This document shows, piece by piece, positions 11,024 through 36,924 of a DNA stretch of 36,966 nucleotides. Positions within the stretch are counted from its first letter, which is position 1. Each line of letters starts with the position of its first letter. The notes under the pieces are model-generated. The model was given only the letters and a program-made list of their open reading frames with translations, was not told the origin of the DNA and did no database searches. Location: the IMG/VR virus record IMGVR_UViG_3300017757_000042, positions 1-36,966 of that record. The stretch is one strand, 5' to 3'. This DNA comes from a virus. The position numbers and the translations under genes were made by a program.

Positions 11024-11031
11024 GATAAATA
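11024..11031 (+). promoter_or_regulatory. Late promoter of the gp25-gp7 block
   Basis: GATAAATA ends 5 bases before the gp25 ATG at 11037. With T4 late-promoter geometry (box at -13 to -6) the first transcribed base would be the A of the ATG, so the mRNA would be leaderless. ATTAAAAC lies 17 bases upstream. Confidence 0.78.
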
Positions 11032-11036
11032 TTGAT

Positions 11037-11408
11037 ATGGCAAACATTTATCGAGGCTTTAGCACGGTAGGGAAGGTAAGGGCACCATTTACTAAAATTG
11101 ATGGTGAACTAATTAAATCAGACTTACTCAACGAGCTCTATTCAAGAAAGGGCGAACGAGTAATGAGACCAAACTACGGAACACGCATTTGGGATATACT
11201 AATGAACCCATTGGATGAATTTGTGGTGGAAGAAATCAAGGAAGATATAGACAGAGTAGTTTCTAAAGATCCTAGAGTTGAAATCACAGACATGTTCACG
11301 CAAGTACTCGACCATACTATTAGAGTAACTGTACATTTAAAGTTTAAACCTTTCTTAAACGAAGACACTTTATTTGTAGAGTATGCTAGAGACAATGTAG
11401 AGAACTAA
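11037..11408 (+). CDS. gp25: Baseplate wedge subunit gp25
   Basis: A 123-residue member of the gpW/gp25 family (T4 gp25 is 132), a sheath-initiating wedge component. Typical segments are GERVMRPNYGTRIWDILMNP (about 41-60) and LVNELYSRKG-like text just before it, with a closing FKPFLNEDTLFVEY. I start it at the ATG at 11037 (MANIYRGF). An in-frame ATG at 11022 lies in and upstream of the GATAAATA box, so it would not be transcribed from that promoter. There is no room for a ribosome site behind the predicted start, which suggests leaderless translation. One base separates its stop from gp6. Confidence 0.88.
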   Translation: MANIYRGFSTVGKVRAPFTKIDGELIKSDLLNELYSRKGERVMRPNYGTRIWDILMNPLDEFVVEEIKEDIDRVVSKDPRVEITDMFTQVLDHTIRVTVHLKFKPFLNEDTLFVEYARDNVEN

Positions 11409-11409
11409 T

Positions 11410-14400
11410 ATGGCAGTAAACAGTAGACAAAACAATTTATTTGCGGCAGAGGATTGGTCCGTAGCCTATCAGGCATACAGTCAAGTAGACTTTCAAGCAT
11501 ATGATTTCGATACCATTAGAAATGCAATGGTCGAATATATTAAAACAAACTTTCCTGAAAACTTCAATGACTATATTGAAAGTTCAGAATTTATAGCAAT
11601 TATAGAATTGCTTGCCTACTTAGGTCAGAGTATTGCATTTAGAATGGATATTAATACTAGAGAAAACTTTCTAGAAACAGCAGAAAGAAAAGATTCAGTA
11701 TTTAAACTTGCTAGACAATTAGGTTACAATCCTAAAAGAAATATTCCTGCTAGTGGCTTAATGAAAATTGTTAGTGTTTCAACCAATGAGCCATTAACAG
11801 ATAGTGCAGGAAATAATTTAAACGATAGAACAATTAGTTGGAACGATGCCAACAACCCAGATAGTTACGAACAGTTTATAACTATTATGAATAGTGCATT
11901 TGGAAATGTAAACAGATTTAGTAAACCTGTTAAAACAGGAACAATTGGAGGCATACTAACAGATAGATATGATATTAATACTCCTAACAATTCTCCACTA
12001 GCACATAACTTCAGTGTAAACGTTAACGGTGTAAATAGAAATTTTGATTTTGTAAATATGGATTTTGAAGATGCAGGTGTATTTGCAGAAAAACATCCTG
12101 ATGCTACAAATAACTTTTCAATTATTCATAGAAACGACGGCTTAGGTCTTTTAAGTAAGAACACAGGATTCTTTATGATGTTCAAACAAGGAACATTAAA
12201 TGTACAAGAATTTAACTTTGCACAACCAATTGAAAACAGACAACAAGATATTAATGTTGAAAACATTAATGAGTTCGATGTATACCTACAAGAAGTAGAC
12301 TCACTTAATAACGTATTATCAAAGTGGACTAAAGTGCCAAATACGGTTGGACAAACACTTATGTATAATACTAAAGCAAAAAACACACCGTTGCTATATG
12401 CTGTACAAAACTTAGGTACAGGTGGTATTAAACTACAATTTGCAGACGGTAACTTTGCAAATGTACCAGTAGGAAAATATAGAGCATTTTATAGAGTAAG
12501 TGATAACGAAAGATTCCAACTGCAACCAGATGATGTTAGAGCAACTGTTACAACAATACCTTACTTAACACAAGACGGAAAACAATACAATTTAACAATA
12601 ACAACCAGATTAGAAAATGCTGTAACAAATAGTTTACCAGCAGAAAGTTTAGCAGGCATTAAAGAAAGAGCACCTAAGGCTTACTATGCTCAAGACAGAA
12701 TGATAACAGCACAAGATTATCAAGTACTACCGTTGGCTAAAAGTACAAATATTAAAAAACTAAAAGTTACTAATAAAACACATGCAGGGCATAGTAGATA
12801 TATTGATATTACCGATCCTACTAGCACATTCCAGACTACAACAAACATTGCAGAAGACGGAGCATTGTATGAGGAGGCAAGTAACTCTAGCGATACATTT
12901 ACTATTACGCAAACTAATACAGCACAGGATTTTATTAATACTAAATTCCCAATAATAGTAAAGAATTTAAAATTAAACGATTTTATATACAGTTCGTATA
13001 GGACAGCAATTAAGGAAGAGCCACAATATCAAGACATGTTTGATATTTCCATATATGGCATATCGTGGAATACATTGCCAAGAAAAAGTGTAGGACAATT
13101 TGGTTACCTAACAGAGTTATTCACTAATTCAGGTACTGCCACAGACGTTAATACTGCAAATACCAATTTTAAAATTATACAGCCAGGTTATATGTTAAGA
13201 TTCTATGATCCTGCTGACAAGTCAAGTTATGAATGGGTTAAAATTATAAGCATAGATAATAATGGTGTTAGAAATTCTTCCAGCAGTACTACTAACGGAC
13301 CAGTAAAACTTAACAAAGAAATTAAAAACGGATGGAAATGTGACGAACTTATAGTGGTATTAAGAAAAACACTATTCGCACTTGAAGAACAAGAATTAAG
13401 AAATGCATTAACTAATAGAGCAACATTTGGCTTAAGATTTATGCCTAGTGAAAACAGATACTACATTATAGAAAATAATAACTTATCTTCTTCAATAGAA
13501 TTTAGTGCAGGAAACACAGGCGATATTACAGGTACAGGTGCTGATGCAAGTTGGATATTAAGATTTAACTATACTACAATAGACACATTGTCTTATAGAT
13601 ATGACATAGAAATAAGAGGTACGCAGTTTGTATTTGAAAGTTTAGAAGATATACGTTTTTATGACGTTAATCAAAACAGAATACAAGACAATGCAACAGG
13701 ATTAGCAAAATACGATACTATTGAATTGCCAACTTTAAACCTAAAACCAAGTTTTACAGAAGGATTTAGTTGGGTCGACCAAGATGGTACAACACTTGGC
13801 GATAGATGGTATTTGCCTACAACAGGATCATATTTTCAAAATATTCCATTAATTTCTAGAAATGTTAAATTCTCTGATGTACAAGTATCTTTAACATCTA
13901 ACTTTGGAATATACAAAAACGGAACTGTAGGTGAATTTGTAGAACAAGCAAATATAGAATTAGGCACTAGTTCTGCTACAACAGATGACGGCAACGTAGT
14001 TATTGTAGATGATACTGGTGTTGTTAATTCACTACCAACTATCACTATACCTTTTAGTAATACAACATTCGGTGGCAATATATTAGACGGCTCTGGAAAC
14101 ATTAGATATAGATATAATAATGTTAACCAGCCTTCATTGGCGCCTAGTGTGGTAGGAGATGGTAATGGATTTTATCTACTAGATAGTGATGCTACTGAAC
14201 AAACAGGTAATATTAAAATAGAACTGAATACTAGACATCATTATGCTGTAGATAGTACTACAAGAAATAATAGAAGTGATACTATTAGTATTAAATATGT
14301 TAACGACAATGCAAGAATTGACAGCCCAATTTTATATAGTGCAATTGGCAACTTCCAATATCCGGACGGGTACACAGATCCTAAAAAAGTTAAAGTTACA

Positions 14401-15854: not shown

Positions 15855-18800
15855 ATGGCTGACAAGCAAATTAAAAAGTTACCAGGACAGTTACAAACTA
15901 CTGTACTGAAAAACTTTTTTGAAACTACAGTTGAGCAATTATTCAGTAAAAGTAATATTGAATCTATTTCAGCCTACGTAGGTAGAAAAGAATTTGAGCA
16001 ATTCAACCCTAATAATGATTTTTATGTACAAGAGCATACACCAGAAAGAGAAAAATATAGTTTAGAACCAGTTGTTAATTCTTTAGATCCAGTAGAAGGT
16101 GATTCTACAAACATATTGTTCTATGAGGACTTTTTAAACCAACTAAGCAGTTATGGTGCTGATACAAACAAACAAAACGTTTTATTCGACACAAACTTTT
16201 ACAGTTTCCTTCCACCAATTAATTATGATAAGTTAATAAACTATCAAGAATACTTTTGGAGTACAGAAGGCCCAAGAACTATTTCCATTAACGGAACCTT
16301 AGCAACACCTATCAATGTATTAAAAGATATATTAGGCAAGAAGTCTTATACTTCGCCTAACGGTATCGAATTAAAGAATGGTGCTGTAGTAGAGTTTACT
16401 GGAGAACATGTAATACCTGAATCTTACATGGGTGCTAGATATATTGTAGAGGGTGTTGGGGAAAGCATTATATTATATGCAAAAGAACAAAACTATAGTG
16501 CTGTGTTCTCAACTCCGGCTTTTGTACCGTGGGATCAAGAAATAATCACAGCAGAATCAAATTTAATTGCTACGGATAAACCTTCAGGCGCCATTACAGC
16601 GATAGGGTTATCAGGCAGACCATACTATGATGCATTAGGACAATTAACAGGAACAGTTTTTAATACCTTAGACGATATAACTGAATCAGGAGATACTTAC
16701 TGGAAAGGTTATGTTACAGGTGCAGGCGAATTTTTATCTTATATAAATGACGGTGAATATGGATTTGATAACAGTCCATGGGACGGTGGTAACACACAAG
16801 AAACACCAGACTATATGTTAATGCAAAGAGGAACAACGGATAATAATACCTGGAGTAGAATTAACTTTTGGCATCACAAAGATAGATTTTTAGAAGCAGG
16901 AAGTTCTTTGCCTGCTAAAAAATATAGAGCAAAAAGACCTATTTTAGAATTTGATAGAAATTTAGAATTATATAACTTTGGTAATAAGGGTTTAAGTTTT
17001 AGTGCAGATTTAAGTGGAGAAGATTATACTCTATCTGAAATAGAAGGCAGACCTGTAAGTGCTCCACTAGATAGCCAAGGTTTAAAAATTAATAATAAAA
17101 TTATTATACCGGATGAAGAAACAGCAGTATCTAGATATATCTATGTTGTAGAAGACGAGCAAAAACAAACTGTAAACGGTTCTGTTAGTGCGTCTGCTAC
17201 TATTGTATTAACATCAACAACCGATGTATACATAGGAGCAACTATATCAGGAACAGGTATTTCTGAAGGCTCCCTGGTATTAACAGTTGATAGAAGTACA
17301 AATACAATAACATCTTCAAATGCAGATACTATTGCAGATGGTACCGAACTAACATTCAAAGATAGAGTTAAATTAACAAGGCTTCCTGCAGATACAAATC
17401 CTACAGGAGCAATAGACGGAGATGGAAACTTTGTTCCTTACTCACCAGAAGTAGGCGATATTGTTTCAATATTATTTGGTAATAACCATCAAGGTAAAGA
17501 ATATTATTGGTCAGGAACAAGATGGTTGGTCGGACAGCAAAAAACTAAAGTAAATACTGCTCCATTATTTCAAGGATATGATGTTAATAAAAAGTCTCTA
17601 GGAGACACTTTAACATACCCGCAATCATCTTTTGCAGGTACTAAAATATTTTCATACAAACCTGGATTAACAAATACTGTTAATGATAGTGTTTTAGGCT
17701 TTCCGTTACACTACAAAAATTTTAATAACTTTAGTGAAATAGTTTACGATAATAATTTATCAGGAGACGTTATAAGTTACATACCGTTTGGTGGTAACTC
17801 AACAAACTTTGCTAAAGGTTACATTTACTACAAGAAAATATTACCTAACGGAGATGTTACATATGACACAACTTGGGTAGGACACAAACAACCGTTCAAA
17901 CAAAAAATAGAAGATACATTTATTGTTACTCAAAATAATTTAGATACAAAAAAACTTGTTTGGGAAATCACAGCAATACCAAATAACAATACACAACTTA
18001 ATGTAAAAGTAAATGGGTTAAAAAGAACAGACTGGACATATAATACAAATTTAAAAAGTGTTACATTTAATAGTTTTAATTTAGCACTTAACGATGTAAT
18101 AGAAGTAAGAACAACATCTGATACAGGTATTATTAAAGATGCTAAAAGAGAAGGTAGATTTGAATTACCTATTAGTTGGTATTCTAATACTGAAAAGGCT
18201 GATGTACTTACAATCAGTGAGCCTCAATATTTAGAGCATATTGTAAATTATGTAGGCGGGCAAGAAACTATAACAGGTAATATTCTAGGCACAAATAATT
18301 TTATAAACATAACAGATGATAAAACATTTGCAGACAGAATTGTTCAAACAGACGATGACTTGCAAATGGCAGGATTTTTAATAAGCAACGATAATTTTAA
18401 TATTGTTGATGCTATGAGATTTAACGGTGAAGAATACCTCAAATATAAAAACAGATTAAAGAAAGAAATTAAACGTTATATCGATAATAATGATACATCT
18501 AACATGACTAATCATGATATTTTAGAAGATGTATTACAAAATGTTATATCTTACAATCCTGGAAAACTAGTATTTGATTACAGTTACATGTTAGCATTAG
18601 GTGATAGATATGACGAAGAAACAATCATTACAAATAATATAGTACAAAAAGAATATACTCTTACAAACTATGCAGATAAAACAAATATAGAAAACACTAT
18701 ATTAGTTTATGACCAAGACGTAAATGGCAATGATATTATGTTGCTAGTTGATAACGATTATACAATAACATCTGCATCAGGTGTATGCACATTAACATTT

Positions 18801-21800
18801 ACAGAAAATTATAATTTAACATTAGGTAATACAATTAAAGTTAGATTCTTTAATAAAAATAGAGAAAGTGCTCAGTGTCCTCCAACAACAGCGGCAATGG
18901 GACTAACACCTGTTTACATTCCCGAAATATTATCAGACACAAGTTTTAAAGATGCTATTAATGTTATTGTTGGTCACGATGGAAGTAGAACTATAGCAGA
19001 CAATGACACACAAGACACAGTTCTATTAGAATTTGAAAAACGTGTTTATAATAGTATACAAACTGTTTATAGAGAAAGAATAAAACATCCAGACTTAAAT
19101 GTACATGATATTAGACCAGGGCAGTTTAGAACTACAGGCATAGATAGAACAACATACTATAATATATTAAGAGAAAACTTTAATAAATTTGTTTCTAGAA
19201 ATGAAGTAGATTTTGTTTCAAATGAATATTATGATGCTAATGATTCTAATACATGGAATTATAATTTTGGAACAGCATCTCCTAGTTATTGGAGAGGAAT
19301 ATTTGAAGCCTGTTACGATACAGAAAGACCACATACTCATCCTTGGGAAATGCTTGGCTTTATTAAAAAACCAACATGGTGGGATACTCAATATATTACT
19401 ACAACATATACCAATTATGGTAGTGGTAATAAACCAATGTGGAAAGATTTAGAAGAAGGAATTATTAGACAAGGCACAAGAGAAAATGTTACTAATGATG
19501 TATACAAACTTAATAATTCTTACAGACGTATAGGACTAAGTTTAGAATTACCTGTTAATATAAATGCTGAACGATTAGCACCAGCAAATATTGTAAACAC
19601 GGGTGCAACAACTAAAACAGTTTCTTGGTCAAATACAGATACAGGAACTGCTAGTGCTAATGCATCACCATTTATTAATACTACCGACGGTCTTAATTTA
19701 ACTGAAAGGACTAGTGGTGCAAATACATTTTTAAACATAACCACAAACAATTTACAAAATCATACAGTTGGTACATTCCCAATAGAAGGAAGTACGGCAT
19801 TTATAGAAAGTAAAGAATTAAAATATGTTATAGAATCAAATGCAACATCTAATACAGTTACATCTTTTGCAAGTGCAACAAGTACATCAAGTACTTCTGT
19901 AGGAATTGCAGTAAATGGCGCATTACTTTTTAATGCTAATGCAGGTGTAACAATAGATACTACAAGCAATTGGCATTATAACAACATGTATAGAAATGAA
20001 TCCGGGAGAGATACAGTTGGAGGTAATCCAGATTCAAACAATATTTATGGTTATATACAACCGGGACCAGAAGTGGTTGGATTATCTAATTGGCAATTAG
20101 ATACACACTCAACTATACTAGGTTGGGCATTTGATGGCTTACCAATTTATGGTCCATATGGATATACCGATAGATTAAATGATACCAGTGCAATTAAACG
20201 ATTGGAAAGCAGTTATAGTTTAAGAACAGGACCAAGGTCAGCAATAGCACCAGGAGTTGGTGGAACACCCTCAGGCGAGTTCATCGAGGACTATGTGTAC
20301 GATTCTGCAACAGGTGACCTAGACGAATTTAACGGCAGGTATGGAGTAACACCGGAATTCCCGGGTGGTACATACTATTACGTTGCAACATTAGATGCCG
20401 CCGGCAATCCAGCATATCCATATACAACAGGTCCAAAATATAGATATGCGCCAACAGATTTAGCAAATAATATAATAGGTGCAGGCACACATTCAAGTGC
20501 AGGCTCAGTAACTTATGTAAGAACAAATACATTAAACATTGCGTATGCATCTGATACAACATTAACAGGCTCCGACTGGAAGTTTGGAGATGGTGCACCA
20601 GTTGAAAATGCATGGAAATATTCAGAACAATATCCCTTCGCTATAGCGGAGGCACTATTTCTTACCAAACCCGGTAAGTTTGCCAGTGTATTTGCAGAAC
20701 CCGAAAAAATTATTCGTGGCTCTGCAAATGCCATTCAGTTGTTAGATAAAACAACATTAAAACGTTACAAAATTAAAGATGCAATAGTGCATGGTAACAT
20801 GGCATTAGATAAGAAAACATTATTAACAAATACAGGGTATACACAATTTATAGATTCCTATTTAAGATTCCAAGGTATAAGCACACAAAACGAATTTGCT
20901 ATACCATTTAAATCCGTTAACGGAAAATTAGGACATAAGTTTGCAGGCTTTATTGACAAAGATACTATGACGGTATTCAGTGATAGTTATAGTACAACTG
21001 GAGATAGTTCTAGTTTAATATTACCTCATGAAGATATTCAAGTTAATATACATCATGGTCCGATGAGTACAACAAATCATTATACGGGTGTTAATGTAGA
21101 ATTAACTACAGATGGATATTATAAAATAAGCGGATTTGCAAGTACAAAAAGATATTTTGAAGTTGGTGTTCCTAATAAAGATGGTCCGAAAACTGAAATT
21201 TCTGTGGGTGGGGAACCTGCTAACTTTAGTGGATTTGATATGAGTAGAGACTATGTTGCAGGTGACATAGTAAAATCAGGTTACAATTATTATCAGGCAA
21301 AAGAACAAATACCTGCAGGAACATCTGTAACAAATACAGAATTTTATCAAAGACTTTCTAAACTACCTACTATAGGCTCTGCAGAAGCAACATACTATCT
21401 AGAAGATACAGGCGAAGTTAAACGTGTAGAATACGGAACAGTATACAAAACATCACATGAGCTTTTTGAATTCTTAATAGACTTAGGAAGATACCAAAAA
21501 GTAATGGGGTACGACTTTAATGATTTCAATAACGAAATAGGTGACGTTAACGATTGGTTGTATTCAGGTAAGCAATTCTTATTCTGGAGTTTAGGTAATT
21601 GGTCAGCAGGAAATACTTTAAGTTTAAGTCCTATGGCTAGTAAAATTAAATTTGTATCTCAAGAAGGACGTATAAGCGACATTAAAGAATCCTTCAAAGG
21701 ACAGTTTAGCATATTAGATGAAACTGGTAAAAAGATATTGCCAACAGAATGTGCAATTACAAGAGAAGGACAAATAATAACAGTTTCTCCACCAGAAGGT

Positions 21801-27800: not shown

Positions 27801-30800
27801 GGTGTACACAAAGAAGTATTAGACTACTCCTTAAAAGCAGATGAGCAAATGTGTTTTAACAAAGAAACTGTACAAAACCCAACAGTAACTACAACTACTA
27901 CTGGCGCTCAGAGATATAGTGTTAGTGGCGGAACAGTAGACTTAGCATCGGGTTCTACAGGAACTACTGCTTATGGAACACCAACAATTAAAACTCCTAG
28001 AGAATTACAACAAAAAGGAGAGAAGAGTAGTGTATGTGTTACTAGAGGCTCGGGCTATAAAAATGGTGATGTACTAAGAGTTATGGGTGGTACACCGGTA
28101 ATAGACAGCGGTTCTACAGGTATCGAATACCTAGTAATATCAAGTTCAGGTTATGGTTATGGAAATCAAGTAGGTCCAATTGGAAGACCTGTACAAATTA
28201 GAATAGGTTCTAGGGGAGAACCTGGTAATGGTGCTATGTTAGACTATAGTTCATTATCCTTTGACGGTAACGGCGGTTTATCCGGGATACAACTTCCAAA
28301 CAACCAGCAGATAATTAAGGTGCTAAGTGAAGGACAAGGATACAGCATAGACAACCCACCGACTATCACAGTAATAGGCGCTGGTAGTGGTTGTATAATA
28401 ACTGCTAAATTAAAAGAAAAAAATGTTGCAGTTGAAAAAACTGCTAAATTTATTGTAAAAGAGGTTGACCAAGAAGGTGCAATTATAGATTTACAAGTTA
28501 TAAACAGAGGAGTATATAAAATATTTCCAAGTGACTTAGATAGTGGTGTACCATTACAGTACGATATTAAACGTCCTATAGACGGGGTACCTACCAATGA
28601 GCTTTTAGGAAGTGATGTTGTAACTACAACAGGAATTGATCCCACAAAGGCAGGTAAAGGAATAGGTGCTAGAGTATTCTTAACAGCAAGAGATATTCCA
28701 ACTTGTAGTGAGAAGGGAACAGCATTAACAGATTTAGGATTACCTGAAGGACTTACATTCCCAATCCAACCAGCACAACAACTAGCAGATGACATTGCTA
28801 TTTGGAGTCCGTTAGATGAAAATGGTAATCCATTCTTTACAGGAGATTTTGTTACAGTAGGAACAGACGGAGAACTGAATACAGACCCTAATGCTCAAGG
28901 TGATGATCCGTTTGGAGAAATTATTATTGGTGGACCAAACATTGATGGTATTACATTATCAGATCCTTTAAACCCTGGTTTCTTAAATGCTATTGGTTTG
29001 CTGGAAGGCGACTATGTTTGTGATGAGCAACCACTATTTAAAAATATTGATGAAACTGGCATAGATCCTAAACTAGTAGTAGAAAAAGGTGCATTACAAA
29101 ACTTAAATTCATTGACTAGTGGAAGAGTTGGTCCTGCAGGAAATTATATAGGTACGATGCCTTGGAATACAGCATTTAATCTTGGAATGAATTTAGGTAA
29201 TGCAGAAATTATAGATAATTTATATGAATATGAACTTAGACAAATAGATGGACAACAGCCAATAACATTCACTGATGCATCATTGAATAGGCAAAACGTA
29301 ACACCGTTGCTTTTAAACAGTATGAGATTCGATACTGAAAGTGGATTAGACTTAGCAAATATTAGTAATGCTTGGATCGATAGTTACGGCACAACAAACG
29401 GTTGGGCATACTTAGAAAGTAATACTGTTATTAGACAACAAGAGGCACTAACAGATATTGCATTCTTAGATGATGTAATAATATATGACGAAGAAACAGC
29501 AGAAAAAGAATACGATATAAACTTATACGATCCATTCAAAGGTATTATACCAGGATTTATAGACAAAGAAATAACATATAAATCAGAATCAGATCCTGTT
29601 GTGTACGATCCAAAATACACTAAGTTCGGTAAAGAACAAGTTGGACAAACATGGTGGGATACTAGTAAAGTAAGATATAACTGGTACGAGCAAGGAGCCG
29701 GAACATATAGTAATGGATATAACAACACAGAAAGAAATAGAGATTGGGGTAGTAAATTCCCAGGTAGTCAAATTTGTATTTACGAATGGACGGAGAACTT
29801 AGTCGAGCCTAGTAACTACAGTGGCGAAGGAACAACACTTGGAGTCAATAATTTTATTACAGATAAAGAAATAAATTCTAAAGGTAAAGAGATAATTTAC
29901 TACTATTACTGGATAAGAAAATTAACTTCTGTTTCTGATAATGCAAAATTAAACTTAGGTAGAGATAAAAGTATTTTAGAACTAGAATTACTTCTAGAAA
30001 ATCCTGAAGGCAATAGAATGCCTTACTTAGGACTTATGTCTCCGGATGCATATACTGTAAACAAATTAGGTGACTTAATTAAAACAGAAGATTCAATTGT
30101 TAGTTTAAACTTTAGAAGAAAAGATTCTGGTCTATCTAAGAAACATTCTAGTTGGACACTAGCAGGTGAAGGTAATCCTAATGCTGTTATACCAAATAAT
30201 TTAAGTATTAAAGTTATAGATAGTTTAGCAGGATATAATGCTTTAGATGAAGTAGTTCCAGTTGAAGGACTAAGTCCAGGTGAAAGATATGGTAGTAAGT
30301 TTAGACCTAGACAAACTATGTTTAAAGACTTACTTGCGGCTAGAAAACAAATGTTCGAATCTTTAAATGATATATTTGCAGAAGTACAAATGAATACTAC
30401 ATTCAATGATTGGAGATTAGGTCTTCCTACTTCTACGCCTAACTTAGATACAGTCAACTGGTTTGAGTTGTTAAGAACAGATAAAATTACAGGCACAAAA
30501 TTATATTATAACAGCGACTATAAACCACTAAGAAAAGTTAAAACAGATAAGCAGTTGCAATTAATTAAAAACTTATTGGATAAAAGTGTAATACAAGTAC
30601 AGGCAAAAGATAGCGATCCATACAAGTTGTATGAATATTCTAAAGGTACAAAAACATTTAAACTTATTGCAATTGAAAACGAAACTGTCGAATGGAACAG
30701 CAGTATATATACAGCCAGACAAACATTAGCCGTAGGACAGGAAGTAAGACAAATACTAATACATTTATATTACAATGTGTTTACAGGTTCTAATAAGATT

Positions 30801-32672
30801 TATTGGAACAGATTCTTTTTTGATATGGTTAAGTTTGCAGTTGGTGAACAACAAGAAATAGATTGGGCATTTAAATCAACATATTTAAATGTTGTAAAAC
30901 AAGAAACAGACTTAATTCCATTTAAAGGATTAAAGATTGATAACTTTGATAAAGCAGTAGATTACTTTAATGAAGTTAAACCTTATGCAAGTAAGATTAG
31001 AAACTATAGAGATATTAAACAGGCACCTATTGAAAACTTAATAGGTAGTACATCTGATTTTGATAGACCTCCATTCTTTGATGAAGATGCTCAAGAAGTT
31101 AGAATATTAAATGCAAATGTTAGTGCAGATGCAAACATATTATCTAGCGATACAATTTATGCAGGATTTGTTAGCAACGATGGATTGACAAATAACAGCA
31201 TAAGAAAAATGGATACTAAATTAATATTTGACAGAGTTAAAGCAGACTTGTTTGAAAATAGCAGTGGTATACAAACTACAAGAATTGTTGCAGTAAGTAA
31301 CAATACAAACTTAGCACTATCTTTTGTTCCTGCAGACAGCAGTAGATTAGAAGTTAGATTAAATAATGTATTAGTTCCAGCAACAAGTACAAGTTCAGGC
31401 ACAGCAGTAACTAACTGGACATACAATGCAGAAGATAATGTAATTACATTAAACAAAACATCTGCAGATAATCCAATGTTACTAACTATAGAGCCTGGCG
31501 ATGTGATTGACATAAGTTGTATGGACGGATACGATCCTTCAAAAGAAACATTAAGTGCGAGTATTGCCAAGAACATTGTTAAAATTGAAACAAATTCAAA
31601 TGCAGATATTAGTAGTTCTGCAAAAAATTGGACAGCGAGTGACAGGGAGTTTAAATTTAATACAGAAATTAGAACAGCATTTATAAGTGCTATGGATTCT
31701 GCTCACGGTACTGGTGCAGGAGAAACTACGTCATTCACAACTAATGCAACTATAATGACAGACATGGTTTCTAGTGGTAATTTAAATACAACTATTGGCC
31801 TAGTTAAAACAGCAATAGGTGGAGACTTTAACGGCTCACTATTAGATGCAAATACATTTATTGATGTTGTTCCAGGAACACATCCAACAACATATTATAC
31901 TAATACAAGAGGATTTGATTATTTCTTATGGGACACAGATGTCTGGGATAAAGAAGTAACTGTAGAAAACTTCCACGGTGTATTTAATGAAGATAGACAG
32001 GGCAATGTAAATTATAGAATTAATGATGAAACAATATATGGGTTTGATGCTGTAACATTTACAAAATCTTCATATGGTCCTGATAGACCTGAAGAATTAA
32101 TTGTTGTACAACCGTTTGAAACATTAGTTATGAACATTCATACTAGTAACGTTTCCCATGGTAATGTTGCAATAGGAACAACAAGTTCTAAACCAGTTCA
32201 GCACACAATGTTTATGGACTTATTTGGTAGAACAGACTTTTATAGACGTTCCACAACAGGTATTACTACAACGTCAGCAACTGTTAATAGTTGGGAAAAT
32301 ACTATTAGTGTAACAGATGTAAGTGATTTACCTGTAGCAAATGAATCTAATAAAGGTGTAATTTGGATTAACTCAGAAAGAATAGAATACACAGGAGTTG
32401 ATTCGGTAAGTAATAAATTACTAGGTATCATACGAGGTACTAGGGGAACAACTGCTAATCCAATAATAGCATCTGGCTCACAAATATATAATGGTGAAGA
32501 AACAGAAAACATTGCTCTTTCAGGATTTAGAGACCCACAAGATTTAAATTGGCTCACTAGTGATGTCAATGCAAGTGCAGATAACAGTTATGTTACTGTA
32601 AGTTTATGTGATACATCAGGTGATGCCACAGAAAACACAATAGTAGGATTTATACAAAAAGGTTCTACATAA
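15855..32672 (+). CDS. gp7: Giant baseplate wedge protein gp7-like, 5605 residues
   Basis: One uninterrupted frame, starting behind AAGGAA, encodes about 5605 residues; T4 gp7 is 1032. The head (1-150) and segments RPHTHPWEMLGFIKKPTWWD (about 1156) and LAVYDEWALKAGDFGD (about 2133) fit marine T4-like gp7, the wedge initiator that binds gp10 and gp8. A YHYH domain spans about 1373-1532 (ILGWAFDGLPIYGPYGY, then GRYGVTPEFPGGTYYYVAT). Three related modules (about 438-505, 2908-2972, 3067-3128) share the pattern V-SGTG...G..LTF. Others include a TN-rich stretch and nine consecutive prolines (about 3495-3580), a Cys-bounded CUB- or PPC-like domain (3583-3736), a Gly-rich patch (3788-3820), GxGY repeats (about 2244 and 4056-4182), and a terminal segment ending GVIWINSERIEYTG ... 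IIRGTRGTTA (about 5479-5534). The extra parts probably form projections around the baseplate that bind glycans or cell surface. Confidence 0.8.
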   Translation: MADKQIKKLPGQLQTTVLKNFFETTVEQLFSKSNIESISAYVGRKEFEQFNPNNDFYVQEHTPEREKYSLEPVVNSLDPVEGDSTNILFYEDFLNQLSSYGADTNKQNVLFDTNFYSFLPPINYDKLINYQEYFWSTEGPRTISINGTLATPINVLKDILGKKSYTSPNGIELKNGAVVEFTGEHVIPESYMGARYIVEGVGESIILYAKEQNYSAVFSTPAFVPWDQEIITAESNLIATDKPSGAITAIGLSGRPYYDALGQLTGTVFNTLDDITESGDTYWKGYVTGAGEFLSYINDGEYGFDNSPWDGGNTQETPDYMLMQRGTTDNNTWSRINFWHHKDRFLEAGSSLPAKKYRAKRPILEFDRNLELYNFGNKGLSFSADLSGEDYTLSEIEGRPVSAPLDSQGLKINNKIIIPDEETAVSRYIYVVEDEQKQTVNGSVSASATIVLTSTTDVYIGATISGTGISEGSLVLTVDRSTNTITSSNADTIADGTELTFKDRVKLTRLPADTNPTGAIDGDGNFVPYSPEVGDIVSILFGNNHQGKEYYWSGTRWLVGQQKTKVNTAPLFQGYDVNKKSLGDTLTYPQSSFAGTKIFSYKPGLTNTVNDSVLGFPLHYKNFNNFSEIVYDNNLSGDVISYIPFGGNSTNFAKGYIYYKKILPNGDVTYDTTWVGHKQPFKQKIEDTFIVTQNNLDTKKLVWEITAIPNNNTQLNVKVNGLKRTDWTYNTNLKSVTFNSFNLALNDVIEVRTTSDTGIIKDAKREGRFELPISWYSNTEKADVLTISEPQYLEHIVNYVGGQETITGNILGTNNFINITDDKTFADRIVQTDDDLQMAGFLISNDNFNIVDAMRFNGEEYLKYKNRLKKEIKRYIDNNDTSNMTNHDILEDVLQNVISYNPGKLVFDYSYMLALGDRYDEETIITNNIVQKEYTLTNYADKTNIENTILVYDQDVNGNDIMLLVDNDYTITSASGVCTLTFTENYNLTLGNTIKVRFFNKNRESAQCPPTTAAMGLTPVYIPEILSDTSFKDAINVIVGHDGSRTIADNDTQDTVLLEFEKRVYNSIQTVYRERIKHPDLNVHDIRPGQFRTTGIDRTTYYNILRENFNKFVSRNEVDFVSNEYYDANDSNTWNYNFGTASPSYWRGIFEACYDTERPHTHPWEMLGFIKKPTWWDTQYITTTYTNYGSGNKPMWKDLEEGIIRQGTRENVTNDVYKLNNSYRRIGLSLELPVNINAERLAPANIVNTGATTKTVSWSNTDTGTASANASPFINTTDGLNLTERTSGANTFLNITTNNLQNHTVGTFPIEGSTAFIESKELKYVIESNATSNTVTSFASATSTSSTSVGIAVNGALLFNANAGVTIDTTSNWHYNNMYRNESGRDTVGGNPDSNNIYGYIQPGPEVVGLSNWQLDTHSTILGWAFDGLPIYGPYGYTDRLNDTSAIKRLESSYSLRTGPRSAIAPGVGGTPSGEFIEDYVYDSATGDLDEFNGRYGVTPEFPGGTYYYVATLDAAGNPAYPYTTGPKYRYAPTDLANNIIGAGTHSSAGSVTYVRTNTLNIAYASDTTLTGSDWKFGDGAPVENAWKYSEQYPFAIAEALFLTKPGKFASVFAEPEKIIRGSANAIQLLDKTTLKRYKIKDAIVHGNMALDKKTLLTNTGYTQFIDSYLRFQGISTQNEFAIPFKSVNGKLGHKFAGFIDKDTMTVFSDSYSTTGDSSSLILPHEDIQVNIHHGPMSTTNHYTGVNVELTTDGYYKISGFASTKRYFEVGVPNKDGPKTEISVGGEPANFSGFDMSRDYVAGDIVKSGYNYYQAKEQIPAGTSVTNTEFYQRLSKLPTIGSAEATYYLEDTGEVKRVEYGTVYKTSHELFEFLIDLGRYQKVMGYDFNDFNNEIGDVNDWLYSGKQFLFWSLGNWSAGNTLSLSPMASKIKFVSQEGRISDIKESFKGQFSILDETGKKILPTECAITREGQIITVSPPEGSQIFGIIIHTNSIEHAMLVNNKTVFGDTIYDPVFNHRQKRLKVKVKRTKNWDGSLMSEGYLVTEDSLKPNFDTLAQDMGRYNETGYLPVERQVYEASRRQYGYNERKYLREFELVDDNQFDFYSGMIRDKGTKGSLEKLLNSDKVLVPGSLAVYDEWALKAGDFGDVQNHQRLDVKIADTEITSEKQLIQIVYPEDIVSTVSEVEVLGRVNKFYSVPILEIEPPPAEIPGSFQYGGGTTAKATVNLNTSGTIKDITVTEPGYGYTINPSVTVIAAQLLTANITTYFSKPYAISSAYVPNAGSFSGNALTGIYLTDNFSANAASFVNLSSASNISLVADAINTNANTNANVKAEVITISTASGNTTVNNHMLQISANDFTIGGNSDAAVIDDITNKLKLQEKRYQPRQRYSFETANTTTQSEVLVNVNDTATTNGTDWLFDAGSRTTINPTQRTTSGSISFDFTPMSGTSTTLSPIGGITSGAIASDNLQIINGDYPHIEVKVNGVLLSDTLEGNTVSGFSVTNVDSNTNRITFHDVTKLPQQELNSNTPIEIIELATVDFEDTYQGDLPGQSLNIKVKAKDALAAKLKQIRTLEITPDVKTDATILIDVDDNTRMVQRPTDMRTKNLWPTTSSVSHVGIVDSKYTPLPNAGYVSTYNVQYQAMDLPNFERLFNRDTRPASKIPQKNDVVHFAKSEHSEFDVYKLVEPANSNIAYIEEDPNRGTSFLYTDISLNEYANANYLGNAEVEANITNYYDYVVALKRDVDIDPYYANVQLPDGEKAFDTSLMDVNTPVALFLNENQIIKNSIQISGIGYKEPLRLKIEKVEPALSGNISNVSYYLASSEVWNVDANLTGIGNTIKITHEGTEQIADLEDGSYITFTDTANTYPLDKSQSGVEYKASNVSVSPLTTKQTKTGTSDNIIHTDTLDGAVSSTNIVLTTGSFNIQVGQIVSGTGVPANTTVSAITDNKNYTLSTSVTMGNGVAIGFATREDVFAISNVITTSFTVEDANVSANISSSSLRAQVNSGLKFTTDMDLTNVGLFSTMKINNMGLYSGIYRIDNKNIGTGEVSVYGTYVDPFSATHTFTGVDTTTITVPNANTFIQPGMLVSGGDVAANTTIVDVTSTGVILSANANSDANSSITFSDNLYANATVVHDSVNITFAENHTLATDGTDIILNKTVNIIDMSPSYYNWAWRVNDVPTANTLTVQGFGYDHPYTTGGNTYISKIDFITHGTDAITTTPGADTDAYLISKHDGEVYVNGAKVATAFPMYTSQEYVDEINRQIQIKNGAVINCGSFRMALPGFLNVQRNGGSGMSGGGGPYKPGKTLPNNTATNITSTNQIPNPGNTAVVQTPIVGAASQSTPNTPAYQGRKITPAVGPPLEYLGDNPTRDEANGHYGPNGDSFKTMNAQQDNKKNAVDPYQNYIGTSYYSNVTVNKFGIIQGITYPRTYYNWNPETGQRGLWMWMGTPAVSGWINTWIDPNSVIVPPPPGVPSFTQPGAGYDTSSGTPPVNTNTGTNTSTNTNTSTNTTVVPASAGNSQGGAGTTTSGTGVGSTNVNNTGTTAADFTALIAITQHDDACPVPPPPPPPPPNPPVGEVCRQESNSLGIGKTETFKYTFTSDTSQTYPIKLLFDTYSAKDRITIYQSSSQISRGTKVASTRVGDGVSNITQADINAWANTTFQASVGQNPWNTNTGAVSGLLGQNYTQRGDGYVTENGKISWTYNASLGQYITITVEKDSRSSTAFRYFLCFPVNDANGTGFPASGTNNNNSAIGNPPPGGNQSQFPNLANQSWTQTFPSYNIGGIPNFGNLGGAPGYGYGNFGIGGGGGNYGFMGTNYTYSSTLAGLTGVNIAGLPSYNLGQNVGGGTTTASNTTTVANQPTNNINYLTIGALQQNSTTGQFSAVPGSTTNVPICPPKARIKVCGQQKMVGAGDSFFINGDEISLSGATDIEAVKTEILAQTSSVEVMITTDGATQEKCLFIRNKVSDPMIIRNGCAGGVHKEVLDYSLKADEQMCFNKETVQNPTVTTTTTGAQRYSVSGGTVDLASGSTGTTAYGTPTIKTPRELQQKGEKSSVCVTRGSGYKNGDVLRVMGGTPVIDSGSTGIEYLVISSSGYGYGNQVGPIGRPVQIRIGSRGEPGNGAMLDYSSLSFDGNGGLSGIQLPNNQQIIKVLSEGQGYSIDNPPTITVIGAGSGCIITAKLKEKNVAVEKTAKFIVKEVDQEGAIIDLQVINRGVYKIFPSDLDSGVPLQYDIKRPIDGVPTNELLGSDVVTTTGIDPTKAGKGIGARVFLTARDIPTCSEKGTALTDLGLPEGLTFPIQPAQQLADDIAIWSPLDENGNPFFTGDFVTVGTDGELNTDPNAQGDDPFGEIIIGGPNIDGITLSDPLNPGFLNAIGLLEGDYVCDEQPLFKNIDETGIDPKLVVEKGALQNLNSLTSGRVGPAGNYIGTMPWNTAFNLGMNLGNAEIIDNLYEYELRQIDGQQPITFTDASLNRQNVTPLLLNSMRFDTESGLDLANISNAWIDSYGTTNGWAYLESNTVIRQQEALTDIAFLDDVIIYDEETAEKEYDINLYDPFKGIIPGFIDKEITYKSESDPVVYDPKYTKFGKEQVGQTWWDTSKVRYNWYEQGAGTYSNGYNNTERNRDWGSKFPGSQICIYEWTENLVEPSNYSGEGTTLGVNNFITDKEINSKGKEIIYYYYWIRKLTSVSDNAKLNLGRDKSILELELLLENPEGNRMPYLGLMSPDAYTVNKLGDLIKTEDSIVSLNFRRKDSGLSKKHSSWTLAGEGNPNAVIPNNLSIKVIDSLAGYNALDEVVPVEGLSPGERYGSKFRPRQTMFKDLLAARKQMFESLNDIFAEVQMNTTFNDWRLGLPTSTPNLDTVNWFELLRTDKITGTKLYYNSDYKPLRKVKTDKQLQLIKNLLDKSVIQVQAKDSDPYKLYEYSKGTKTFKLIAIENETVEWNSSIYTARQTLAVGQEVRQILIHLYYNVFTGSNKIYWNRFFFDMVKFAVGEQQEIDWAFKSTYLNVVKQETDLIPFKGLKIDNFDKAVDYFNEVKPYASKIRNYRDIKQAPIENLIGSTSDFDRPPFFDEDAQEVRILNANVSADANILSSDTIYAGFVSNDGLTNNSIRKMDTKLIFDRVKADLFENSSGIQTTRIVAVSNNTNLALSFVPADSSRLEVRLNNVLVPATSTSSGTAVTNWTYNAEDNVITLNKTSADNPMLLTIEPGDVIDISCMDGYDPSKETLSASIAKNIVKIETNSNADISSSAKNWTASDREFKFNTEIRTAFISAMDSAHGTGAGETTSFTTNATIMTDMVSSGNLNTTIGLVKTAIGGDFNGSLLDANTFIDVVPGTHPTTYYTNTRGFDYFLWDTDVWDKEVTVENFHGVFNEDRQGNVNYRINDETIYGFDAVTFTKSSYGPDRPEELIVVQPFETLVMNIHTSNVSHGNVAIGTTSSKPVQHTMFMDLFGRTDFYRRSTTGITTTSATVNSWENTISVTDVSDLPVANESNKGVIWINSERIEYTGVDSVSNKLLGIIRGTRGTTANPIIASGSQIYNGEETENIALSGFRDPQDLNWLTSDVNASADNSYVTVSLCDTSGDATENTIVGFIQKGST
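26358..26393 (+). repeat. 18-base perfect tandem repeat, two copies, inside gp7
   Basis: AATACAAGTACCAATACC occurs twice in direct succession (26358-26375 and 26376-26393). In frame it encodes Asn-Thr-Ser/Thr repeats (NTNTSTNT type). The length is a multiple of three, so copy-number change would keep the frame. Confidence 0.9.
26550..26591 (+). repeat. Polyproline run inside gp7
   Basis: The codons CCT CCA CCA CCC are used twice and followed by CCT, giving nine prolines in a row and then NPP. The run separates the TN-rich linker from the Cys-bounded domain. It probably forms a stiff polyproline rod, and such runs normally slow ribosomes unless EF-P is active. Confidence 0.85.
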
Positions 32673-32701
32673 AAACATATTTTAATGAAAAGTGATAAAT
32701 A
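32669..32701 (+). promoter_or_regulatory. Late promoter of gp8
   Basis: GATAAATA (32694-32701) ends 5 bases before the ATG at 32707, the same spacing as at gp25. ATAAAAAC (32669-32676) lies 17 bases upstream and differs from the ATTAAAAC of gp48 and gp25 at one position; it overlaps the gp7 stop codon. The predicted start is the A of the ATG. Confidence 0.75.
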
Positions 32702-32706: not shown

Positions 32707-33330
32707 ATGGAAGATTTAAATAAAACTAAAAAAGATAAAGCAGAAGAAACACCAATAGATGACACTATGGGTTTAAAAATGTCTGGTCATATTTTGATTA
32801 GAGATAAAGAATCCGGTGAAGAACTTGTTAATAAAAGAAATGCTATTCACTATGGTAACATGGCGAATATAATTGCTAGAGCAATGACAGACAAGTTAGG
32901 TGACTACTACATACATTTTATGGGCTTCGGTAATGGAGCAACAAGTGTAGATACTGCTGGAAAAGTTATATATAAATCTCCAAGGGTAAGTGAGAGTTAT
33001 GAATCTAGTGGTACGTTATACTCTAGAACATATCAAAAAGTAGTTAGTAATAGCACGGCGACGGATAAAATCGAAGTTATACCAGGACCAAGTTATACAG
33101 ACTTAAAAATTACATGTACACTAGGATACAATGAACCTAGTGATGCAGACGCATTTGATACAAGTACAACAAATGACGGTTCATATGTATTTGATGAACT
33201 AGGCTTGTTATCATATGCAGACGATATAAACGACAGTATTTTACTGACACATGTTATTTTTCACCCAGTACAAAAAAGTAAAAACAGAGAAATTGAAATC
33301 GTATATACTGTACGAGTTCAACTAAATTAG
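32707..33330 (+). CDS. gp8: Baseplate wedge subunit gp8
   Basis: A 207-residue protein with the gp8 pattern of marine T4-like phages: GLKMSGHILIRDKESGEELV near the start, NAIHYGNMANIIARAMTD, IHFMGFGNGAT, FDELGLLSY and the closing HPVQKSKNREIEIVYTVRV. T4 gp8 is 334 residues and binds gp10, gp7 and gp6 in the wedge. I use the ATG at 32707; an in-frame GTG at 32692 overlaps the late promoter box and would not be transcribed from it. No ribosome site lies between the predicted start and the ATG. It follows gp7, as in T4. Confidence 0.85.
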   Translation: MEDLNKTKKDKAEETPIDDTMGLKMSGHILIRDKESGEELVNKRNAIHYGNMANIIARAMTDKLGDYYIHFMGFGNGATSVDTAGKVIYKSPRVSESYESSGTLYSRTYQKVVSNSTATDKIEVIPGPSYTDLKITCTLGYNEPSDADAFDTSTTNDGSYVFDELGLLSYADDINDSILLTHVIFHPVQKSKNREIEIVYTVRVQLN

Positions 33331-33342
33331 AGGAAATAGAGA

Positions 33343-35412
33343 ATGACGTATTCAGTAAAAACGACTGACACTAACGATACAATCACTATTGCAACGGGTG
33401 AGGTAAGCACTAAGTATGGTGTAGCACTTGTAGGCAGAAACGTATCAGGTTATGGTCAATTTTTCGTTGAAAACACAATATGGATGCTAGAGAACTTTGC
33501 AAGTGATTCTAGCCCAACTGCTAGAAGTGATTCAGCATTAGAAGGTCAACATTGGTACAGTACCGGTGATAACACAATGCGAGTATATGATGGGACGGCG
33601 TGGAGAAGGCAAACTCCTCTAATTGCTTCTTCGGCTCCTACCACAGACTTAGGTCAAGGGACAGAATACTTCGATACAGTTGACAACAAGAAAAGAATTT
33701 ATGATGGCAGTACATGGAATGATGTTTCATATCCTGGTACTGTTACAAGTAGATGGTCTTCAGAGAAAGGCGGAACTACATATGGTACAAGATTTAGAAC
33801 ATTGTACTTAACAGATACTACAAGTAAGAAAAGAGCAGTTGCGGCACTAGTTTATATAAACGATGGTACTGATACAGGTTATACTAGTAATGAAACCATT
33901 ATGTGTATATTCAGTGACTATGCATTTACAGTAGATGCTAGTTCATTATCAACTAGTTACAGAGACAGTGAAAGTTCACCAGTTAACCTAAATGCAGAAT
34001 TTAATGATGCTAACGGTATGGGTTATGATATTAAAGTTGGTATGAACTTAAGACGTGCTTACTCTACAACAGCAGTTAGTTTGGCAAACGTTGCCTTACA
34101 GGCAGATAGTGCCAATGGTTTACTAGTAGGTGGTACAACATTACCAGCAAGTGGTTTCTACCATACAGGTAGTACTGCTATTGTTCCTGGCTCAACAGAT
34201 GCTGTAAACTTAGGTAGTACAACAAACAGATTTAATAACCTATATTTAGGTAGTGATATTGTAATTGGTGATCCAGCAGAAGCGTCTGTTCAAAACCATA
34301 CAATTCAATCAACAGGTAATGCGGCATTATCCGTAGGTACAACAAACGATCCAGTTAAAACATTATATGTGGATGACATCTATATGTCAGGTACTATAAT
34401 TGGATTTGGTGCAGATACTATTGAAACAATTGGTTCTAGTGCAAATCCAATGGACACAGCATTTATTAGTAATGTTGCAGTTAATCCTGCGGCAGGAACT
34501 GCTCAACAAAATATTACAACATCTGGAATAAGAGGACTTGATTTACAAGACTCTAGTGGTACAGTGGTATTTGATGCATCAACAGGAACATTACAGAATA
34601 TTGCACTAGCAAATGCTTTAACACAAGGCGATGGTATTACATCTTTTAGTTATGATGGAAGTACAGCAAGTCAAACTATAGCAGTAGACAGCACAGTTGT
34701 TAGAACAACTGGAACACAAACTGTGGCAGGTGCTAAAACATTTAGTGCAGAAATTATTTCAACTGCAGGTTTAGATGCAACAGGACAAACTATTAAATGG
34801 GGTTCACTAAGCGACGGTACAATTACTGTTACCCAATTTGTAGACGAAGACAATATGGCATCAAATAGTGCCACACAGATTCCGACACAGCAATCTGTTA
34901 AAGCATACGTTGATACTAGTTTATCATCAGGATTCACTAGTGATGCTAACAATACTAGAGACTTAGGTGCTAGTGGTAATAAGTGGGCTAATGTTTATGC
35001 AACAACATTCCAAGGTGTAGCAACAACGGCTCAATATGCTGATATGGCTGAGGTTTATTCCTCCGATGCAGACTATGAAGCAGGCACAGTTGTTAAGTTA
35101 GGTGGCGATGCAGAAATTACAATGACTACAGCACATGCAGATACAGATGTATTTGGCGTGATATCAACAAGCCCAGCATACTTAATGAACGCAGAAGCAG
35201 AAGGATTACCAGTAGCAATGACAGGAAGAGTTCCAGTTAAAGTAATTGGTAAAGTTAGTAAAGGCGAAAGACTAGTTAGTTCTGACGTTCCTGGATTAGC
35301 ATGGGCATTAGGTGATGAAGAATATGATACTAGAGCAGTAATAGGTAGAAGTTTACAAGACAAAAATGACGGCAACGAAGGCATAGTAGAAGCAGTTGTC
35401 GGTGTAAAATAG
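33343..35412 (+). CDS. Tail fibre-like protein
   Basis: A 689-residue fibre-like protein preceded by GAGGAAATAGAG. The N-terminus (about 15-52: TKYGVALVGRNVSGYG, FFVENTIWMLENF) is a segment common at the baseplate-attached end of marine T4-like fibres. Short beta repeats follow (EGQHWYSTGDNTMRVYDG, GTEYFDTVDNKKRIYDG), then a shaft with LYLGSDIVIGD-type turns (about 298 and 545). The C-terminal domain (about 566-689: ADMAEVYSSDADYEAGTVV, VFGVISTSPAYLMN, VPVKVIGKVSKGERLVSSD) resembles fibre C-terminal domains related to peptidase G2/intramolecular chaperones. It probably binds host receptors. Its place after gp8 is that of T4 gp9/gp10, but similarity to those is not visible. Confidence 0.72.
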   Translation: MTYSVKTTDTNDTITIATGEVSTKYGVALVGRNVSGYGQFFVENTIWMLENFASDSSPTARSDSALEGQHWYSTGDNTMRVYDGTAWRRQTPLIASSAPTTDLGQGTEYFDTVDNKKRIYDGSTWNDVSYPGTVTSRWSSEKGGTTYGTRFRTLYLTDTTSKKRAVAALVYINDGTDTGYTSNETIMCIFSDYAFTVDASSLSTSYRDSESSPVNLNAEFNDANGMGYDIKVGMNLRRAYSTTAVSLANVALQADSANGLLVGGTTLPASGFYHTGSTAIVPGSTDAVNLGSTTNRFNNLYLGSDIVIGDPAEASVQNHTIQSTGNAALSVGTTNDPVKTLYVDDIYMSGTIIGFGADTIETIGSSANPMDTAFISNVAVNPAAGTAQQNITTSGIRGLDLQDSSGTVVFDASTGTLQNIALANALTQGDGITSFSYDGSTASQTIAVDSTVVRTTGTQTVAGAKTFSAEIISTAGLDATGQTIKWGSLSDGTITVTQFVDEDNMASNSATQIPTQQSVKAYVDTSLSSGFTSDANNTRDLGASGNKWANVYATTFQGVATTAQYADMAEVYSSDADYEAGTVVKLGGDAEITMTTAHADTDVFGVISTSPAYLMNAEAEGLPVAMTGRVPVKVIGKVSKGERLVSSDVPGLAWALGDEEYDTRAVIGRSLQDKNDGNEGIVEAVVGVK

Positions 35413-35419
35413 ATAAATA
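35412..35419 (+). promoter_or_regulatory. Late promoter of the 348-residue structural gene
   Basis: GATAAATA starts on the last base of the fibre gene stop codon. The predicted start, near 35425, gives a 22-base leader with TAGGAG placed before the ATG at 35447. No ATTAAAAC-like element is seen 17 bases upstream, where the DNA is coding. Confidence 0.75.
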
Positions 35420-35446
35420 TAAGAAACAAAGAAGTAGGAGTTTAAT

Positions 35447-36493
35447 ATGCCAAGTGGAGCAAGTGTAACAGTAACAGGTGGATTCAACATGACCAAAGTT
35501 GTAACAGGTGATGTGATTGGAAACTCTGATTACGATTTAATTAAATCAAACGTCTATAGGCAGTTAAGTACGCCTGCAGACCATACAGTAGGCACATACA
35601 CAGCAAGTTCAATATACGGCTACAATCAATCGATTGGTAGTTTAGACGCCGCAACAGGCGAAACAATTAATGCAAGTAGTACAGATAACGGATACAAAAA
35701 CTTGCAAGACGAGGTCCAGGCTATAGGAACATTCCTAGGTCTTTCTTTAAATAGTTCAACAACAACAGATAAAGTAGATGGTAATACAATCTCAGCAAGT
35801 GATTGGAGTAACTTAATGGACGATGTTAAGTTATGTTTCGATGCAAGACTTTCTGTTCCTGGTGGTAGTTTAACATCTGGAGCATTTGGTGATTCTACTA
35901 GAACAACAGCATGGGGTAGTTCAGGTACACCACAAATTACACATGAGTTTACTACTACATTTAGTAGTGAAGCACATGCTAGAGCATTTTTCAACGGTGG
36001 AGGAGAAATAAACTTCACAGCAGGACGTTCAGGTGGTACATCAGGTAGTGCGGCAGGAACAATTGGTTCTCAGAATTCAAACTGGACATCACTACTAAGT
36101 AGTATGGGTACATTATCATTTAACCTTAACAACTTAACAAGTTCAGGATCAACAGGTACAAGTGCTGGTAAAGGTTTTTATGAACTAACAGCAAGTTATC
36201 AAGACTTATATACCAAGTATGGATCAGGTTCTTATGCAAGTAACTATTACTTAATAAGAGCAAAAGTCAACAGTACAACTAATCCAACAATTATAACATT
36301 CCAGGTAAGATTTAGAGATGACCACGCATTGGGCGATGGTGTTGGTGCTGACGGTGTTGACGGTAACGCAGATGACTCAGTCGGATATGTAGATAGTGTT
36401 GACGGTACTGTAGTAAGTACTGTAACATCAAAACGTGCAAATAACGGTGTTGTTATTAGTGCGCCATCTTACTCCGCAGTAACTAACCTGTAA
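35447..36493 (+). CDS. Putative virion structural protein
   Basis: A 348-residue Ser/Thr/Gly-rich protein without Cys-rich or enzymatic motifs beyond one Cys. Segments such as EAHARAFFNGGGEINFTAGR (about 175-194), NWTSLLSSMGTLSFN (about 206-220), NYYLIRAKVN (about 266) and ITFQVRFRDDH (about 281-291) are familiar to me from structural proteins of marine T4-like phages. An Asp/Gly-rich stretch (about 292-325) could bind calcium. It has its own late promoter, a good TAGGAG site and a strong terminator behind it, so it forms a separate high-output unit. A fibre or baseplate decoration role is likely; the exact place in the virion is unknown. Confidence 0.62.
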   Translation: MPSGASVTVTGGFNMTKVVTGDVIGNSDYDLIKSNVYRQLSTPADHTVGTYTASSIYGYNQSIGSLDAATGETINASSTDNGYKNLQDEVQAIGTFLGLSLNSSTTTDKVDGNTISASDWSNLMDDVKLCFDARLSVPGGSLTSGAFGDSTRTTAWGSSGTPQITHEFTTTFSSEAHARAFFNGGGEINFTAGRSGGTSGSAAGTIGSQNSNWTSLLSSMGTLSFNLNNLTSSGSTGTSAGKGFYELTASYQDLYTKYGSGSYASNYYLIRAKVNSTTNPTIITFQVRFRDDHALGDGVGADGVDGNADDSVGYVDSVDGTVVSTVTSKRANNGVVISAPSYSAVTNL

Positions 36494-36508
36494 TAAGCAA
36501 ATTTAAAG

Positions 36509-36538
36509 AAGCCAGTTCGTTGTAACTGGCTTTTTTTT
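36509..36538 (+). terminator. Strong rho-independent terminator
   Basis: AAGCCAGTT (36509-36517) pairs with AACTGGCTT (36524-36532) around a 6-base CGTTGT loop, and a run of eight Ts starts at 36531. It closes the structural gene unit, 16 bases after the stop codon. The next late promoter box begins five bases after the T-run. Confidence 0.93.
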
Positions 36539-36542
36539 GACT

Positions 36543-36550
36543 GATAAATA
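36543..36550 (+). promoter_or_regulatory. Late promoter of the 122-residue gene
   Basis: GATAAATA ends 5 bases before the ATG at 36556, the same as at gp25 and gp8; the sequence GATAAATATTG-N-TATG is shared with gp25. The predicted start is the A of the ATG. The region upstream is the terminator, so no ATTAAAAC-like element is present. Confidence 0.75.
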
Positions 36551-36555
36551 TTGCT

Positions 36556-36924
36556 ATGACGTCTAAACTTAACAAAGCATTAGAGTTTTCTAATTACAGA
36601 ACAACTTTAAATATTCAACACAATGCACTTAAATCCAAAGTGCAAACATTATTAAATTATAGTATTAATGGTGGCACATTCGAGATATCACAAATATTAA
36701 TCTCTTTTGTAAAAACATTAATAGAACAGGGACACGACACAGCAATACTTTTAGATGTGTACAACAACCCTATTGAAATTGTTGGTTTAGAAGATTTTTT
36801 AGAGGAAATTCTATCAAGATACTTTGAAGCAACAAACGAATATCACGCAGAATATTCAAAAATGAAGCAGAGTCGCAAAGTTCATAAATTGGTAGATTTG
36901 GAACTTGATGACGACAAAGAGTAA
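36556..36924 (+). CDS. Small conserved-looking phage protein, function unknown
   Basis: A 122-residue, mostly helical, soluble protein. The first part is polar (KLNKALEFSNYRTTLNIQHN). The middle has a hydrophobic helix-like stretch (ISQILISFVKTLIEQGHDTA), then LLDVYNNPIEIVGLEDFLEE and the acidic end LELDDDKE. It resembles small proteins of unknown function in other marine T4-like phages, as far as I recall, but I cannot assign a role. It has its own late promoter right after a terminator and a start codon that probably coincides with the transcript start. The next gene begins inside its last codons, so the two are probably translated together. Confidence 0.7.
   Translation: MTSKLNKALEFSNYRTTLNIQHNALKSKVQTLLNYSINGGTFEISQILISFVKTLIEQGHDTAILLDVYNNPIEIVGLEDFLEEILSRYFEATNEYHAEYSKMKQSRKVHKLVDLELDDDKE

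Follow-up and report, generated by a model that had tools for sequence, protein, structure and literature searches.

Late promoters placed at the start codon suggest leaderless late mRNAs in a group of marine T4-like phages

The mRNAs of lambda cI and other single phage genes are leaderless and begin with a 5'-terminal AUG, but they are isolated examples and do not form a systematic promoter class. The Thermus phage phiYS40 makes many leaderless middle and late mRNAs (PMC3594737), and in Deinococcus-Thermus leaderless mRNA arises where a -10 element and the ORF are separated by a short, constant distance (PMC12340547). T4 late promoters depend on the sigma factor gp55, require no -35 element and use a box of the TATAAATA/NATAAATA family at -13 to -6, with A(-13) in one study (PMC2988020) and adenine at -12 in another (PMC7892883). 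The form NATAAATA is that of cyanophages (PMC2984593).

The stretch of DNA analysed here, referred to as the window, comprises the 36,966 bases of a linear IMG/VR virus record and is a fragment of a T4-like phage. Family and PHROG matches identify a gp55-type late sigma factor and gp53-, gp5- and gp25-like baseplate genes, and SbcC-like and calcineurin-like nuclease subunits are also encoded. Searching at the DNA level revealed no named relative of the window. As in T4, a gp55-type sigma factor accompanies an eight-base box of the same family, GATAAATA, present at five plus-strand sites. The resemblance to phiYS40 lies in the many leaderless phage mRNAs, predicted here from sequence; the differences are the phage and host group, the T4-type late box and the parallel class of SD-led late genes. 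The Deinococcus-Thermus motif is a cellular sigma70-type -10 element and not a phage late box. A literature search, with most subscription papers outside its reach, found no earlier report of leaderless T4-like late mRNAs. Leaderless starts are known in other organisms, and the T4-type gp55 version appears to be new.

Six copies of GATAAATA occur in the window (Table 1) compared with 3.8 expected, which is no significant excess. All five plus-strand copies precede genes, three at a gap of exactly five bases and two at longer gaps with AGGAG. The pattern GATAAATAN5ATG is found three times, against a mean of 0.07 in 100 shuffles, none of which reached three, and the reversed-pattern control yields no site in the window. 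The significant feature is the fixed spacing rather than the abundance of the box. A preliminary description had placed the last A of the box six bases from the A of the ATG at three genes, and had noted larger spacing with AGGAG at the remaining two late units. Both statements are exact. Its T4 register of -13 to -6 agrees with the two studies cited above, and its placement of the ATG at the expected +1 fits this register and the initiator step described below. The resulting division into putative leaderless units and leadered units with an SD is likewise supported.

Table 1. Coordinates of late boxes, genes and associated elements in the window.
Feature	Position	Strand	Remarks
gp55-type sigma factor for late transcription	3768..4640	-	PHROG 12791, E 9e-93
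GATAAATA box facing gp55 gene	4730..4737	-	
GATAAATA late box, leadered class, gp48	4740..4747	+	17-nt gap TGTTATAGGAGACTAAT with AGGAG; ATG 4765
GATAAATA late box of gp25	11024..11031	+	-13 to -6 if A of ATG 11037 is +1
TTGAT spacer and ATG of gp25	11032..11039	+	predicted +1 at 11037; Y(-1)A(+1) signature
gp25 baseplate wedge gene, predicted leaderless start	11037..11408	+	PF04965, E 4e-8, above cut-off
GATAAATA late box of 207-residue gene	32694..32701	+	
207-residue gene, predicted leaderless start	32707..33330	+	gap ACAGC; PHROG 11259 (no function assigned)
GATAAATA late box, leadered class, 348-residue gene	35412..35419	+	27-nt gap (...AGTAGGAGTTTAAT) with AGGAG; ATG 35447
Hairpin AAGCCAGTT/AACTGGCTT, then T-run	36509..36538	+	end of 348-residue unit
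GATAAATA late box of 122-residue gene	36543..36550	+	4 bases after hairpin with T-run
122-residue gene, predicted leaderless start	36556..36924	+	gap TTGCT

We measured how many bases separate ATAAATA from in-frame ATGs close to ORF starts in the window, in eleven larger contigs from its group, of which some were read in part, and in eight named phages that are T4-like or related. Together, the window and these contigs contain 61 sites at gap 5 compared with 0.8 for the average permuted 7-mer; no sites fall at gaps 2-4, seven fall at 9-15, and a broad class extends over 16-40. Since related contigs contribute some genes more than once to the 78 sites of the wider set, a fairer count comes from six independent records, namely the window, two contigs of about 330 kb (G001 and G011) and the cultured phages HTVC008M, Mosig and Melnitz. 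In these records the distribution is bimodal, with 48 genes at exactly 5 (16 in G001, 12 in G011, 8 in HTVC008M by ORF scan, 6 in Mosig and 3 each in Melnitz and the window), few at 9-15 and a broad SD-bearing class at 16-40. ATAAATA is the commonest 7-mer at -12..-6 before the first ATG in G001, G011, HTVC008M and Mosig. A pattern search of HTVC008M with ATAAATAN5ATG returns nine sites, all at annotated CDS starts, and every checked gap-5 ATG of the cultured phages is a deposited CDS start (18/18; 9 in HTVC008M, 6 in Mosig, 3 in Melnitz). Unlike these genomes, T4, KVP40, Syn9 and S-PM2 have no gap-5 sites and nearly all their gaps are at least 10 nt; PA5oct has 2-3 of about 33 at gap 5. Judged from this survey, a group of marine T4-like phages shares gap-5 spacing as a general trait.

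The leadered promoters of the group provide a view of the transcript start that is independent of the ATG. In these promoters (n=157), a pyrimidine-purine (YR) step is most frequent at offsets 5/6 from the box, at 0.57 versus 0.15-0.37 elsewhere, and offset 6 is an A in 69%. Offsets 5/6 also rank highest in T4-type references, where the step reaches 0.42 (n=80). In the gap-5 class, C or T stands just before the ATG in 47/48 cases, compared with a background of about 0.49 over the whole gene set (p 8e-14), and the A of the ATG is therefore the likely initiating purine. It is from T4 and this initiator signature that we infer the +1 position in the window phage. Gap-6 sites have a pyrimidine before the ATG in 6/7 cases; their transcription start may be shifted by one base, as TSS use can wobble. 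A further group of 12 gap-8 sites, in G001, G011, HTVC008M and Mosig, outnumbers those at gaps 6, 7 or 9 and keeps the step at 5/6 in 11/12, implying 3-nt leaders.

Translation signals separate the same classes. A strict SD precedes 72 of 105 leadered sites but only 5 of 68 sites at gaps 5-8 (p 1e-16), so that the latter show the lack of an SD expected of leaderless starts. With respect to 5' RNA structure, the leaderless genes are not clearly weaker than other genes.

Comparison of relatives bears on the proposal, made in the preliminary description, that the gap should remain constant while its letters drift. Both gp25 and the 122-residue gene behave in this way. The gp25 label itself is borne out by the domain match, and in gp25 relatives the box is kept in 43/43 and gap 5 in 42/43 (gap 6 in one), with spacers TTGAT, GTTGT and TTCAT. 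Family searches with the 122-residue gene gave no match. Its close relatives hold gap 5 with seven further spacers (TAGCT, TAGAT, TGCTT, TGTAT, TTGAT, TGACT and TGAGT), apart from one with gap 6, and three relatives have a GGTAAATA box instead at identical spacing. Distant relatives have long leaders with AGGAG-like sites at their ends. The 207-residue gene, earlier labelled gp8, belongs to a family of no assigned function and the label is unsupported. This single orthologue family is itself bimodal, with 39 distinct sites at gaps 5-8, 2 at 9-15 and 51 at 16-45. About 8 bases 5' of the gp25 box, a ATTAAAACTAGTTTTAAT palindrome occurs in the window (about 10998-11016) and in relatives. TAAAAC motifs lie 5' of other late boxes in this clade (15/51), although in T4 the late promoters lack an upstream element.

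The reading favoured here, with a probability of roughly 0.86, is that at each of the three window genes the start codon is fused to its late promoter, which is of the T4 type, and that these genes hence produce leaderless mRNA. The late box would occupy -13 to -6, followed by five free bases, and RNA polymerase with the phage gp55-type sigma factor would start RNA at the A of the AUG. The resulting mRNA would begin with 5'-AUG, lack an SD and be translated by leaderless initiation at the 5'-terminal AUG, mainly by 70S ribosomes. Other late units would keep the same distance from box to start and transcribe an SD-containing leader of about 11-35 nt. Few sites have a gap that would produce a leader of about 4-10 nt, as would be expected if such mRNAs suit neither translation route. 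Leaderless mRNA is very likely at gap-5 genes generally, for which we infer both where transcripts begin and how they are translated. Compact, SD-independent expression of single genes or operon heads is the most likely role of the fused starts. Such fusions would be used with both late and sigma70-type promoters, interchangeable with SD leaders and gained or lost gene by gene.

That they serve instead as a ribosomal switch specific to late infection is less likely. The preliminary description had suggested that the leaderless class serves ribosomes altered late in infection, and the corresponding alternative is that ribosomes carrying phage bS21, or working with changed initiation factors as in phiYS40 (IF2 raised and IF3 lowered in infected cells), prefer 5'-AUG mRNAs. 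However, complete sigma70-type promoters with the ATG 5-6 bases after the -10 hexamer are also present, 7 in G001 versus 25 leadered and 12 in G011 versus 24, as in TTGACA-N16-TATAAT-AGTATT-ATG. In these two relatives the predicted leaderless starts are thus not restricted to middle and late genes in the manner of phiYS40. Moreover, genomes with the leaderless class also contain SD-led late genes, and often the same gene is SD-led in a sister phage. The gp25 gap is 5 in HTVC008M, 8 in Mosig and 16 with AGGAG in Melnitz, and PA5oct has a long leader with GTG; one orthologue is thus predicted to lack a leader in some phages and to have an SD leader in others. Early-type leaderless promoters and orthologue switching together lead us to reject a late-specific translational switch as the main explanation. 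It is retained as an unlikely rival because bS21 accompanies all strong cases and phiYS40 provides a precedent. Every one of the five large or complete genomes in which the leaderless class is clear encodes the protein (HTVC008M 91228-91431, Mosig 9932-10141, Melnitz 35389-35661, G001 near 145900 and G011 near 275600); T4, KVP40, Syn9, S-PM2 and P-SSM2 do not. Consistent with this, S21 has been described as core to pelagimyophages and as setting them apart from cyanomyophages (PMC7029224). Nonetheless, PA5oct, Atu_ph07 and Vibrio phage 2.275.O encode bS21 without a clear leaderless class, and the association is confounded by kinship. As a cause of the leaderless class, bS21 was rejected, being carried also by phages without that class. 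Sigma70-type promoters with the ATG at the expected +1 include L243-L259 (G011) and L207-L223 (G001). In a test of the host side with four SAR11 single-cell genomes, matches to the TTGA/TATAAT pattern are at control level for both spacings.

Leaders could also derive from unseen promoters or operon readthrough, with SD-free translation and an incidental spacing of the box. The 207-residue gene offers some room for this, as a co-directional gene lies about 20-35 nt upstream and readthrough from it may occur. The 122-residue gene, however, follows a hairpin with a T-run that is kept directly before the box in close relatives; the scanner calls this stem on the minus strand only, and the plus-strand T-run was read directly. 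Upstream of gp25, the neighbouring genes have the opposite orientation, and no further plus-strand promoter-like site was found in the stretch before it. Hidden leaders would also fail to explain the peak at gap 5, the initiator step and the scarcity of gaps 9-15, which makes this account very improbable.

Also very improbable is the placement of the true starts at upstream in-frame codons, with the box intragenic and the transcripts arising elsewhere. Such codons exist at ATG 11022, which overlaps the front of the gp25 box region, and at GTG 32692 before the 207-residue gene, but neither has an SD. GTTGT-type gp25 relatives carry a TAA at -24 and then no in-frame start before the ATG, and the ATG of the 122-residue gene is preceded, at 18 bases, by an in-frame TGA. 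Across the gap-5 class, 38/48 ATGs have no other in-frame start upstream, and the alternatives at the remaining 10 all lack an SD. Chance in AT-rich DNA, compatible as it is with the unremarkable box count in the window, is practically negligible given the spacing controls and the absence of gap-5 sites from T4, KVP40, Syn9 and S-PM2, and is refuted by the multi-genome peak.

The leadered late units show their own conservation. Orthologue sites of the 4740 box have a gap of 16-17 in 13/14 distinct cases; one gp48-type gene (L043) has gap 5 where others show 16-17. Between gp55 and gp48 (4730-4747), two boxes stand back to back as TATTTATC-GT-GATAAATA, a pair conserved in 27 loci, some of which come from the same or near-identical contigs. 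Through the minus-strand box, the late sigma factor would regulate its own gene. T4-type late promoters are co-activated by gp33 and gp45, and proteins of the gp45 clamp type and of the gp33 type are annotated in HTVC008M, Mosig and Melnitz.

If 5' ends map as predicted by the fused-promoter reading, T4-type late transcription operates in two modes here, one giving leadered and the other leaderless mRNAs. The group with fused starts includes cultured viruses of OM43 and of SAR11, an abundant ocean bacterium, so that leaderless translation becomes testable in these hosts and a concrete question arises for phage-encoded bS21. A broader scenario would have a marine T4-like branch, SAR11 phages included, run many genes on promoter/start fusions (nine start sites in HTVC008M) while bS21 shifts the host ribosome toward leaderless or SD-poor mRNAs; we regard it as unlikely. 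Gene starts could also be corrected, as genes of this kind can be overlooked or extended by gene callers that look for an SD. Standard methods failed to find late promoters in pelagimyophages (PMC7029224), and this may be because many of them overlap the start-codon region.

Three further features of the window lie outside the late boxes. A SegE-type GIY-YIG endonuclease (540-965, minus strand; PF19835) adjoins recombination nuclease genes, an alpha/beta hydrolase-like gene (10021-10650, minus strand; PF12697) lies amid the baseplate genes, and positions 15855-32672 form one open reading frame of 5605 codons.
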